NCBI RefSeq assembly: GCF_030158565.1
Contig: NZ_JAOASQ010000006.1
Span: 1,921 to 65,920 of the forward strand
DNA length: 64,000 bases
Direction: 5' to 3'
From: Limnohabitans sp.
GTDB lineage: Bacteria; Pseudomonadota; Gammaproteobacteria; Burkholderiales; Burkholderiaceae_C
Within the stretch, counting starts at the first letter, position 1, and the number at the start of each line of letters is the position of its first letter. Below the pieces are notes generated by a model, which worked only from the letters and a program-made list of their open reading frames with translations, made no database searches and was not told the origin of the DNA. Shown piece by piece: positions 5,641-62,860 of this stretch. The translations under genes and the position numbers were made by a program.

Positions 5641-5815
5641 CACGTCATACCGGAGGAGATCCGGCATCCACCATCCATATCATGCAGGACTTGATCCGGC
5701 ACCCGCTTTTCATGTCATACCGGACTTGATCCGGTATCCACTTTCCATGTCATACCGGACTTGATCCGGTATCCACTTTCCATGTCATACCGGACTTGAT
5801 CCGGTATCCACTTTC
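5641..5815. repeat. Class B tandem array: five 35-bp units
   Basis: Three identical 35-bp units (5711-5745, 5746-5780, 5781-5815: CATGTCATACCGGACTTGAT then CCGGTATCCACTTTC) are preceded by two diverged units in the same phase (5641-5675 and 5676-5710). Each unit holds ATACCGGA-CTTGA-TCCGGTAT, an 8-bp perfect stem with a 5-base loop. There are no spacers between units. Confidence 0.95.
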
Positions 5816-13930: not shown

Positions 13931-14001
13931 CCGTCATCGCGAGGAGCGAAGCGACGTGGCGATCCAGACACTGGATTGCCACGCTGCGCTCGCAATGACG
14001 G
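13931..14001. repeat. Class C palindromic repeat between transporter genes
   Basis: Left arm CCGTCATCGCGAGGAGCGAA continues to CGTGGCGATCCAG. Right arm CTGGATTGCCACGCTGCGCT continues to CGCAATGACGG. The two form a long imperfect stem, followed by extra decayed halves (TTGCGATGACGGCTGTTGA). A related copy lies inside recC at 52202-52334. It fills most of the 241-base gap in the operon and could protect or stabilise the upstream binding-protein transcript. Confidence 0.9.
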
Positions 14002-14077
14002 CTGTTGACGCTTGCGATGACGGCTGTTGATATTCGCGATGCCCCATCGCACAAAAAAAACCTGCCCTGCAGGCGAC

Positions 14078-42530: not shown

Positions 42531-42536
42531 ATTATA
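42531..42536 (-). promoter_or_regulatory. -10 element of the rpsO promoter
   Basis: On the minus strand GGGCTATAATTC holds a perfect TATAAT. With a 17-base spacer the -35 would fall at 42554-42559 (GTCCAG), a poor match inside a decayed class B repeat copy. Confidence 0.6.
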
Positions 42537-42546
42537 GCCCGTAATC

Positions 42547-42800
42547 GCTCACCCTGGACTTGATCCTCCCCCAGTCTCCCCGGACCGCCCCCCCTTGCCA
42601 CCCCCAACCACAGCCATTTGTCACCCCTTGTCACCGCCCCCTTGTCACCGCCCCCTTATCACGCCCGCCCCCTTATCACGCCCGCCCCCTTGTCACACCC
42701 GACCACCTCCCCTTGTCACATCCGACCACCTCCCCTTGTCACCCCGGACTTGATCCGGGGTCCATGCAGCTGCACTGGATGCCGGGTCAAGCCCGGCATG
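42547..42800. repeat. Class B repeat field with nested tandem doublets
   Basis: A decayed copy (42547-42566) starts the field. Then come three successive exact or near-exact doublets, each beginning TTRTCAC: 14 bp twice (42628-42655), 17 bp twice (42656-42689), 23 bp twice (42690-42735). They lead into a full copy TTGTCACCCCGGACTTGATC then CGGGGTCCATG (42736 on). A second hairpin TGCCGGG-TCAAG-CCCGGCA ends the field. No gene is seen in this gap. Confidence 0.9.
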
Positions 42801-42891
42801 ACAAGCTGCACCCGAAAATGGCATTCAAAGGGTTTTCACCCTGCAAGTTCACAAGACAAATCCCTAAAGTGAAGGCAAAGGAGCCATTTGC

Positions 42892-51177: not shown

Positions 51178-54100
51178 GCCTGCTCCTCGGAGTCATCGCC
51201 ACTGTCGGCATCGGGCAAGGGCTCGATCGCGATGTCTGCAGCCCATGCTTGCAAGGGCGCATAAACCGCGTCGGCCAGGCGCTCGAACGCGCCCGTGTCC
51301 AGCAAGGACTGCAGCGTGGGGTAGGTGCGCGCCAGCGCCGGGTCTTCGCCCAGCGCACCGCGTTTGAAGTCGCTGCCCTCGTAGGCATCGGCCAGCGCGT
51401 TGCGGTTGTCCTTGTCTTTGAGCCATTGCAGCGCCAAGCCGGGCGGCAAAGGCAAGGGCCAGCGCATGCCCTCGACCCAGGTGTCCAGCAAAACCTGCAG
51501 CTGGGCACGGGCCTGCTCGGGGTCTTGCGGGGGCACGCGCAGCACGGCGTTGCGCCCCACCACCACACAAGGCAAGGGCTGGTGCATGGCGGCAGCCGCC
51601 AAAGAGAGCAGCCAGATGTCGATCAGTTTGTCGGAGTAGGCCTGCGGTGTTTTGGGCACCAGGTTGGCCAGCTTGCTGGCGCGCAAGGTGAGCGACAGCG
51701 CCCCGCTCTCGCCCCACAAGAGGCCGCTGAGTGCGTCTTGCAAATGCACGTTCAGTGGATCGTTCGGTGTGGCCTGCGCTTGCGGCAGATCGACCAACAA
51801 GCGCTCGGCCACTTCGGGGTAGGCCTGGCGCTCTTGCAGGGCCGCACCCAGCAGGGTTTGCAGCTGATGGCTGAGCTTCTGGGCTTCGAGCACGCCCACA
51901 CCGGCCAGCGGCAAGGCACCGGCCTGGCGCAAGCGCTGCACCACGCGCTGTGCGTGCGCGGGCAACGCATCCAAGCTCAGATCGGTGGGCACATGCGCCA
52001 GCTCGTGGTCCAGCAGCTGGTACAGGTCCAGCCCGCCCAGACCAAACAGTTCTTCGTCGTACAGCGCGCTGCGCTCGTCGTCCAGATGGACTTGCAAACG
52101 CTCGCGGAAAAACGCGCCCACCGGCTTGCGCAGAAAGTGCGCCAGCTGGGTCAGCGTGATGACCGGGGTGCCGGTGGCGGACTGCAGCGGTGGCAACAAG
52201 ACTGGATCGCCGGGTCCCGCCACGTCGCTTCGCTCCTCGCGGCTGACGGCTGCTCCTGGCGATGACGGCCTGGAGGCTTCGTCGTCGCGGGCGCCTTTTT
52301 TCTCGTCATCGCGAGCGAAGCGTGGCGATCCAGTCTGCGCTGCCCGCCATTCCCTGGCATAGGTGTGCAGCGCACTGCCCTCTTCAAAATACGTGCGGCT
52401 GAACGGCTGCAGCGGGTGCACCGTGGTCAGGCGCTTGGCGCTGCCAGTGCCCCAGAGCGCATCGATCTCGTCGCGCAATTGCGACACCAGCACCGAGGGC
52501 GGTTGTTCACTGTTGTCGCGCACGCTGCGGCCGCTCCAGCTGACGTACAGCACGCGCCGCGCCGACAGCAGGGCTTCGAGCATGAGCTGGCGATCGTCGT
52601 CGCGGCGCGAGCGGTCACCCGGCCGGGCCATGCCGGGCAGGCCCAGCAAATCGAAGTCGGCACGCGGGCTGCGGCGCGGATAGTCCCCGTCATTCATGCC
52701 CAGCAGGCACACCATCTGGAAAGGGATCGCCCGCATCGGCATGAGCGTGCAAAAGGTCACGCCACCGGCGCGAAAGCGTTGCTCCAGCTTGGGCACCTTG
52801 AGCGCTTCCAGCCAGGCCGAGCGGGCCACGGCCAGCGGCACAGCCTCTGCAAAATCGGCTTGGTCAGCCGCCTTGCCCCAATCGTTCAGGGCCTGGTCCA
52901 GCGCCGACAAGGCATTGCGGTCGGTGTCGTCTTGCGGCTTGAACAGCGCCGCCAGCAAAGCCCGGCACCGCTCGGCCCACTGCGCGGGGCTGGCCGCCGT
53001 GGCGCAGGTTTCCCACCAGTCCATCAGGGCCTGCAGCAAATGCGCCAGCGCACCGGCCAGCTCGGCGTCGAGCCCGCCGACTTCCGGGTACGGGTCAGGG
53101 CCCGAAGCAGCTGGCGGCATCGGGTCCGCACCGCAGGCATAACCCATCAGCATGCGTTGCACGCCAAACAGGGCCGAGTTGTCTTCGCCGCAAGCGGCCA
53201 GGCCCAGGCCTTGGCGGTGCTGGGCGGACAAGCCCCAGCGGATGCCCGAGCCCGCCATCCAGCGGGTGAGAGTGGGCAATTGTTCGGGCTTGACGCCAAA
53301 ACGGGCCGCCAACGCGGGCACTTCGAGCAGCTCCACCAACTCGCTCATGCGGCCACGCTGCTGCGGCAAGGCCAGCAGCCACTCCACCGCGTGGATCAAG
53401 GGACTGTTGGCTTGCGCCCCCAGGTCAGCGATGTCAAAAGGAATGAAACGGGCGTCGCCCCGCTTGTATTGGCCAAACACGGCGCGGATCGCCGGGGCCA
53501 TCACCTCGATGTCGGGCACCATGACCACCACGTCGCGCGGCGAGGCCTCAGGCATCTGGTGGAACCATTGCAGCAACTGGTCGTGCAGCACTTCCAGCTC
53601 GCGCACCGGGCTGTGCGCCACTTGAAACACCACCGAGCGGTCATCGGCTTGCAGCGGGGCATCCACCGCGTCTTGTGACGACTTCAGGTCGCGGATGCGG
53701 TGTTGCAACTGCGTGAGCAAGCGCGTGGCATCGGCCCCTGGCACATCGTCGAACAGATCGAGCTTGACGCCGGGCACGGCTTCTTGCGCGGCCTGCACAT
53801 CGTCGAACGCATCGAGCTGGCGGATGAAGTCGCGCCCCTGCCGGCCCCAGGCGGCCAGCAAGGCGGGCGCATGCCAATGCATTTGCGCCAAGGGCGTCTC
53901 GGACAGCGATTCTTTTTTGTAGCCATGACGCTTGCGCTCAGCCCGCAGCCATTCGCGCCCGTCCATGATGTCGCCCCAGTGGTACTGGCAGGGGTTGGGC
54001 ACGGCCAGCAGCACCTGGCTGTGCGCGGCCAGCGCCGCCAACATGTCCAGCAGCTGGCCAGGCATGTGGCTCATGCCAAACACCGATACGCGCCGCGCCA

Positions 54101-55008: not shown

Positions 55009-55115
55009 GTCACCCGGGACGCGATCCGGGGTCCATAGAGGCTGAAGAATGGATCCCGCATCCAGTGCGGGATGACAAACACCAAATGCATCACGCATCC
55101 AGTGTGGGATGACAA
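55009..55115. repeat. Class B repeat copies upstream of the flavin reductase gene
   Basis: GTCACCCGGGACGCGATCCG then GGGTCCATAG is followed by ATGGATCCCGCATCCAGTGC then GGGATGACAAA, and a further half copy CACGCATCCAGTGTGGGATGACAAA. This is the same nested pair layout as at 16031-16102. Apart from the DnaA-like boxes, nothing else is visible in 54762-55216. Confidence 0.85.
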
Positions 55116-55216
55116 ATCCCCAATGCATCGCCTGACACGGGCTTAGATGGCTTTGGTCTGAAACAGCTGTCATCGTCATGACTGGTCATGCCCGAAACCC
55201 GCACTACAGTGCAGGC

Positions 55217-62571: not shown

Positions 62572-62860
62572 AGCGGAGATGGATCCCGGATCAAGTCCGG
62601 GATGACGAAACAGAGGTCGAGGGTCGCTTTCGGGATGACGAAGCAGAGGGCGTGAATCACAGCCGGGAAACGAAGTGGAGGCTGCGAACCACGCTGTTCA
62701 TTTGTCACCCCGGGCTTGACCCGGGGTCCATCTTCTGGGTCTTCACGATGAACACAAGTCGGTCATGGATCCCGGATCGAGTCCGGGATGACGATAAATA
62801 GGTCGTGGCTCGAGTCAGGAATGACGAAACAGCAGGTGTTGATCACGTCCGGGATCACGG
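62572..62860. repeat. Class B repeat field between Stealth and cho
   Basis: Copies in alternating orientation: ATGGATCCCGGATCAAGTCC then GGGATGACGAA (from 62580), a truncated GGGTCGCTTTCGGGATGACGAA, TTGTCACCCCGGGCTTGACC then CGGGGTCCATC (62701-62733), ATGGATCCCGGATCGAGTCC then GGGATGACGA (62764 on), and decayed ends AGTCAGGAATGACGAAACAG and GTCCGGGATCACG. Nothing else is recognised in 62430-62893. Confidence 0.88.

Follow-up and report, generated by a model that had tools for sequence, protein, structure and literature searches.

The C-rich doublets upstream of rpsO in Limnohabitans sp. GCF_030158565.1 (genome G000, a 3.05 Mb draft in 75 contigs) are in our reading, to which we give a probability of about three in four, a case of a polar minisatellite that sits at the tagged 5' head of REPs of the CGTC superfamily and grows by stepwise local duplication. 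Polar minisatellites, e.g., human MS32, are tandem arrays in which variation is concentrated at one end, beside a fixed element; the arrays described here differ from them in that they are bacterial, have units of 12-29 bp, are anchored at a REP head and do not involve meiotic recombination. Between species these arrays change by whole units and lie only at REP heads, next to a REP and flanks that remain stable, and they appear to be built stepwise by local copying tied to the REP head.

The array upstream of rpsO and its REP dimer

The window, i.e., the whole stretch of 64,000 nucleotides that was analysed, contains a field of C-rich tandem units between two divergent genes, rpsO (ribosomal protein S15, Pfam PF00312; 42153..42419, minus strand) and a gene encoding a TctC/Bug-type solute-binding protein (PF03401; 42892..43866, plus strand). 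At the left edge of this field there is a degenerate REP 5' arm with its loop (CTCACCCTGGACTTGATCCT, 42548..42567, plus strand, as are all the units that follow), which matches the REP in 17/20 positions, a value reached in 0/3000 shuffles; according to the alignment, this arm is also present in the sister species G087. It is followed by a diverged 23-type unit (TTGCCACCCCCAACCACAGCCAT, 42595..42617; 16/23, p=0.022) that is absent from G087, and by a 10-bp unit (TTGTCACCCC, 42618..42627). Next come two identical units of 14 bp (TTGTCACCGCCCCC, 42628..42641 and 42642..42655), two identical units of 17 bp (TTATCACGCCCGCCCCC, 42656..42672 and 42673..42689), and two units of 23 bp that differ by one mismatch (TTGTCACACCCGACCACCTCCCC, 42690..42712, and TTGTCACATCCGACCACCTCCCC, 42713..42735). 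The full-length copy begins at 42736, directly after the 23-bp doublet, and the complete TGTC-tagged REP dimer occupies positions 42737-42803. The series of three doublets and a full copy that the earlier note had described is therefore real; its account was accurate, although it lacked the 10-bp unit, the diverged 23-type unit and the degenerate REP arm. Since these lie to the left of the 14-mers, the array does not simply start with its shortest unit.

The motif TTRTCAC is found 15 times in the window, versus 9.1 expected on both strands, and given that 8 of these 15 are packed into the 125 bp between 42618 and 42742, the cluster is not the product of chance. Beyond TTRTCAC(C) the 14- and 17-mers are no closer to the REP than shuffled sequences are, and any likeness of the 23-mers to it is weak at best (p 0.05-0.12), so that the idea of doublets that capture ever longer pieces of the palindrome is unsupported; what sets the longer units apart is their C-rich spacer. 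With units that have just 7-8 nt in common with the REP, the window array is in fact a weak example of the arrays described below, and the ascending order of its three doublets has a 1-in-6 probability of arising by chance. A search against Rfam gave no match, and nothing was found in a promoter/terminator scan.

Sequence and fold define the two halves of the dimer. The left REP (42737..42764, plus strand) has the tag TGTC, the stem ACCCCGGA/TCCGGGGT, the loop CTTGA and the tail CCA, and the right REP (42776..42803, minus strand) reads TGTC ATGCCGGG CTTGA CCCGGCAT CCA; both are thus composed of TGTC, an 8-bp stem around CTTGA, and CCA, with their heads facing outward, and the dimer folds strongly (z = -5.3). 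This hairpin is not restricted to the window. In 1.16 Mb of G000 a GTCA-type tag was found on 244 hairpins, 160 of which have a CCA end; a slightly stricter count gave 195 GTCA-tagged hairpins versus 0-41 with control tags, and 173 tagged hairpins carry a CCA-type tail. A partner at the tail side is present for 195/331 REPs, and an 8-bp stem with a 5-nt loop is also the modal hairpin type genome-wide. Across the genus, a genome may have anywhere from 0 to 141 exact matches to the main REP type, G000 and G087 being the richest.

The CGTC-tagged REPs were described from five phyla by Di Nocera et al. (2013; PMC3733652), who give them a CGTC or TGTC tag, stems of 8-9 bp, loops of 4-5 nt, a CCA tail and a mostly head-head dimeric arrangement, with some copies located inside genes and with no dedicated transposase found. 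The elements studied here share with them the tag, the 8-bp stem, the 5-nt loop, the tail, the head-head dimers, the intragenic copies and the fact that no dedicated transposase was found. In that description A and then T are said to occupy "almost invariably" the first two stem positions; in the window dimer these are AT in the right half and AC in the left, both types being common in G000. In its tag, stem, loop, tail and head-head arrangement the window palindrome fits the superfamily.

Head arrays in two genomes: placement and local origin

A pattern search detected the same arrangement elsewhere in G000 and in five other congeners. The arrays were surveyed in 1.16 Mb of G000 (173 REPs) and 1.59 Mb of G034 (166 REPs), where an array was counted when at least one partial unit lay directly upstream of a REP head. 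Arrays accompany 76/173 REPs of G000 and 58/166 of G034, in total 134/339 (~40%), as compared with 3.6% for random anchors; two or more units were found at 79/339 REPs, versus about 0.24% under the null. The units are mostly of 18-28 bp. Each comprises a match to its own REP, mostly of 9-14 nt, which covers the tag and some or all of the 5' arm, followed by a spacer.

Several features reveal where these units came from. The last 7 nt of the spacers agree in 5.1/7 positions within an array and in only 2.0/7 between arrays. Unit nucleotides 10-12, arm bases that were not used in finding the units, match their own REP in 2.0/3 positions and other REPs in 1.37/3 (p about 3e-15). The spacers are also similar to the upstream flank in its forward reading (p = 8e-4), and not to its reverse complement. 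Taken together, the locus-specific spacers, the arm bases typical of each REP and the likeness to the forward flank indicate that the arrays were made in place and are of local origin. Inverted template switching, hinted at by TTCTTA versus AAGAA in hrpA, was considered as a source of the spacers and discarded, given that there was no excess over shuffles.

The growth in unit length toward the full repeat, which the earlier note took as a record of how the array expanded, is not general. Of the 79 arrays with two or more units, 18 have a longer unit next to the REP, 17 a shorter one and 44 one of equal length, which rules out lengthening as a rule; at the window locus it is an incidental, one-off feature. 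Decay with distance from the REP, in the pooled data, was not significant (29 vs 23 arrays, p = 0.25).

The placement of the arrays is strongly asymmetric. The 136 REPs without a tail-side partner have 33 head arrays versus 4 tail arrays, and these four are whole-REP tandems; for 100 strict monomers, half-unit arrays were found at 20 heads and 0 tails (p = 7e-7). Given that the palindrome is symmetric, slippage on the hairpin alone should give arrays on both sides, and half-unit arrays are observed only at the head. According to GC skew, array-bearing heads show no leading/lagging bias (48/126 vs 44/130, p = 0.52), an outcome that does not favour a simple lagging-strand hairpin model. The hairpin itself is not all that matters; some property of the tagged end does too.

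Other arrangements are also present in the window. Between 5640 and 5942 three complete REPs and further decayed ones are repeated in tandem every 35 bp, and after them a half-unit array of about 21 bp lies on the minus strand, at an opposite REP head; decayed tandem units of 37 and 33 bp lie at minus-strand REP heads at 55048-55129 and 62597-62675, respectively.

Orthologous arrays in related species

The comparison set included 90 genomes of the genus, and the arrays were compared between species, from draft assemblies. At the window locus only G087 aligns through the array site. There, TTATCACCCCCC, a 12-bp counterpart of the 14-mer, is present twice, the 17-mer TTATCACGCCCGCCCCC is present once as an exact match, the 23-mers are absent, and the array is followed by an identical REP. 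Identity between the flanks of G000 and G087 is 97.2% over 1 kb and 94.4% over 1.2 kb, with zero gaps, and from the REP rightward 160/160 nt are identical. Comparison of the locus across strains had been proposed in the earlier note as a check of serial duplication, and the difference, here between species, of 14x2, 17x2, 23x2 in G000 and 12x2, 17x1 in G087 supports it. By itself this difference may be a gain in G000 or a loss in G087; the locus gives it no polarity because the other congeners lack the entire element. An array of identical structure in distant species, which would have implied constraint rather than stepwise growth, was not found, the other congeners having no array at this site.

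In many other congeners the homology upstream of rpsO ends abruptly at a conserved -10-like AATTATAGCCCG (window 42531-42545; loci L007-L035). Beyond this sequence they carry differing repeats or none, which makes the intergenic site a hotspot for the turnover of repeats.

Other orthologous arrays also differ by whole units between species, which gives further support to serial duplication. A REP pair with its array lies inside hrpA, an open frame of 1383 codons, and one head of this pair has 0 units at L276, L278, L280 and L287, 1 at L261, 2 in G000 and 3 in G034, with the frame maintained in all species. The outer unit is common to G000 and G034; of the inner one, G034 has two copies. For an 18-mer array the counts are 3 units in G087, 4 in G000 and 6 in G034. 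Another common REP dimer carries, at its right-hand head, outer units that occur in more than one species and inner ones that are species-specific and nearly identical within each species. These loci suggest that new units are added beside the REP, a polarity that rests on few loci. An automatic count of units at orthologous G000/G034 loci with a shared REP gave 23 that differ and 4 that are equal, although this count mispairs REPs at multi-REP loci and takes some loci twice, and the loci compared by eye are the evidence. The number of units thus differs between close relatives, at the species level (G000, G087 and G034, as well as hrpA), as in minisatellites or VNTRs.

The nearest named relatives of the HrpA of G000 are from Limnohabitans. 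Palindromic repeats that vary from one Limnohabitans species to another occupy the inter-domain linker of HrpA (L153:14225-18376, on contig C33 of G000; L260-L339). These are translated in frame as VIPANAGIHARTG, VIASEARQSSQR or SGVTKGES, and the linker has between about 50 and more than 90 residues, with flanking domains that remain alignable.

Possible mechanisms and relation to known repeats

A unit consists of local flank, the tag and a variable part of the REP 5' arm; in the window array it includes little of the REP beyond the tag, TTRTCAC(C). In the process that we propose, a 3' end near the tag could become free when the polymerase stalls or the strand is nicked, fall back to a previous head-like match and re-copy spacer and head. 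Short homology would be enough for the first event, and later ones could use the growing array. Units would be added singly, apparently often beside the REP, leaving the outer ones shared between species and the inner ones lineage-specific; older units would diverge and vary in length through small indels, which in C-rich spacers could yield variants of 12, 14, 17 and 23 bp, each doubled once. We infer that most unit differences are gains, that the reaction is slippage or nick-primed re-synthesis, and that the site is set by a special property of the tagged end, perhaps as the target of a nicking enzyme. A more specific proposal, put forward tentatively, is that an active enzyme, which would recognise the CGTC/TGTC tag, nick at or near it and prime local re-synthesis, has left its footprint in the head-only arrays; it is conceivable, though again doubtful, that such an enzyme would be the "missing transposase" activity of the CGTC-tagged REPs, leaving a polar record at about 40% of the copies.

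Slippage could also be passive: the REP stem would stall the polymerase, the nascent end would slip to an upstream match, and flank and head would be re-copied with no need for tag recognition. The strong fold of the dimer, the unit-REP match that mostly ends within the 5' arm or loop, and the spacer as a forward copy of the upstream flank all agree with this explanation; nevertheless, a palindrome should act on both sides, which the 20 heads versus 0 tails of the strict monomers contradict, a leading/lagging bias is missing too, and we regard a purely passive process as possible but rather doubtful. Whole-REP tandems with units of 33-37 bp could have lost their 3' arms later, leaving the present units as remnants; such tandems do exist (e.g., window 5712-5815) and some units are visibly decayed full REPs. 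However, one length and one spacer per array is usual (equal in 44/79), which would need truncation before multiplication; besides, the exact 17-mer is found once in G087 and twice in G000, and the hrpA series grows from 0 to 3 without full REPs at the array positions, all of which makes this origin improbable.

Stepwise copying at the head also has to be weighed against the repeated insertion of new REP fragments by a transposase, targeted to the tag of an existing REP. REPs do cluster, a whole REP dimer of G022 is missing at the corresponding site of G000 (the junction is not clean), and a Y1_Tnp gene is present; but the spacers are copied along with the heads, the units have no 3' arm, and the sole Y1_Tnp lies beside a different repeat, at about one per genome whether there are 0 or 141 REP matches, so that we consider such insertion quite unlikely. 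It is very unlikely that the array represents selected protein-binding sites (TTGTCAC) for the control of the divergent rpsO and tctC: despite its position between both genes and immediately before the conserved -10 region of rpsO, a single congener has it upstream of rpsO, and in a different form, and an array of this kind also lies within the coding sequence of hrpA. Lastly, short repeats collapsed or expanded during assembly, a known risk for tandem repeats in a draft of 75 contigs, are a scarcely credible source of an architecture that recurs in several independently assembled congeners, isolates included, and that preserves the frame of hrpA.

With respect to the enzyme, G000 has one Y1_Tnp (RAYT-like) gene (L146:13000-14100; contig C38, near 153558), which is flanked by AATTGGGGTCAGATCCCAATTA repeats and not by TGTC REPs. 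Judged from this arrangement, the AATTGGGGTCAGATCCCAATTA repeat is likely the cognate of Y1_Tnp; the same repeat is also found upstream of rpsO in several congeners. About one copy of the gene is present in 85/90 congeners, regardless of whether the exact main-REP pattern has 0 or 141 matches, and this constant copy number, together with the different flanking repeats, led us to reject Y1_Tnp as the dedicated enzyme of the TGTC REPs. It is not their obvious partner, although it might act in trans.

The REPs themselves are of a known kind, and we rate the head-anchored half-unit arrays as new relative to the open-licence literature, in which no earlier description of them was found; subscription journals may hold some. 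The available portion of the report on CGTC-tagged REPs (PMC3733652) contains no description of such arrays, calls head-tail dimers negligible and does not mention Burkholderiales. RAYT-associated REPs, BIMEs and REPINs (PMC2817692, PMC3116915) are likewise short and palindromic, with a conserved tag on one of their ends and clustered reiteration, and RAYT-catalysed processing has been proposed to drive BIME dynamics (PMC2817692). However, RAYT REPs and REPINs have a GTAG tag instead of TGTC and a cognate transposase flanked by its own REPs, and BIMEs are formed by whole REPs in alternating orientation, in contrast with the partial, directly oriented units found here (PMC2817692, PMC3116915).

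A process confined to the tagged end separates tag-directed models from plain hairpin slippage. CRISPR arrays are also polar, with newer units next to one fixed end, and combine a constant repeat with unique spacers. The likeness to the head arrays is superficial, since the spacers here are local flank copies shared by neighbouring units and duplicated within arrays, the unit length varies, and the common core of the window array has 7-8 nt.

No dedicated transposase that would explain the spread of the CGTC-tagged REPs has been found (PMC3733652), and the arrays offer a locus-by-locus record of a process at the tagged end. Given that sister species already differ while their flanks are free of gaps, this process seems rapid enough for measurement in culture. 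Typing of Limnohabitans could make use of the arrays as markers, and within hrpA the same process alters a conserved protein in frame. In addition, a second repeat class (CGTCATCGCGAGCGAAGCG...) shows tandem half-units at its GATGACGG end at two places of the window (13931-14041 and 52232-52320), and hence head arrays may extend beyond the TGTC/CTTGA REPs.
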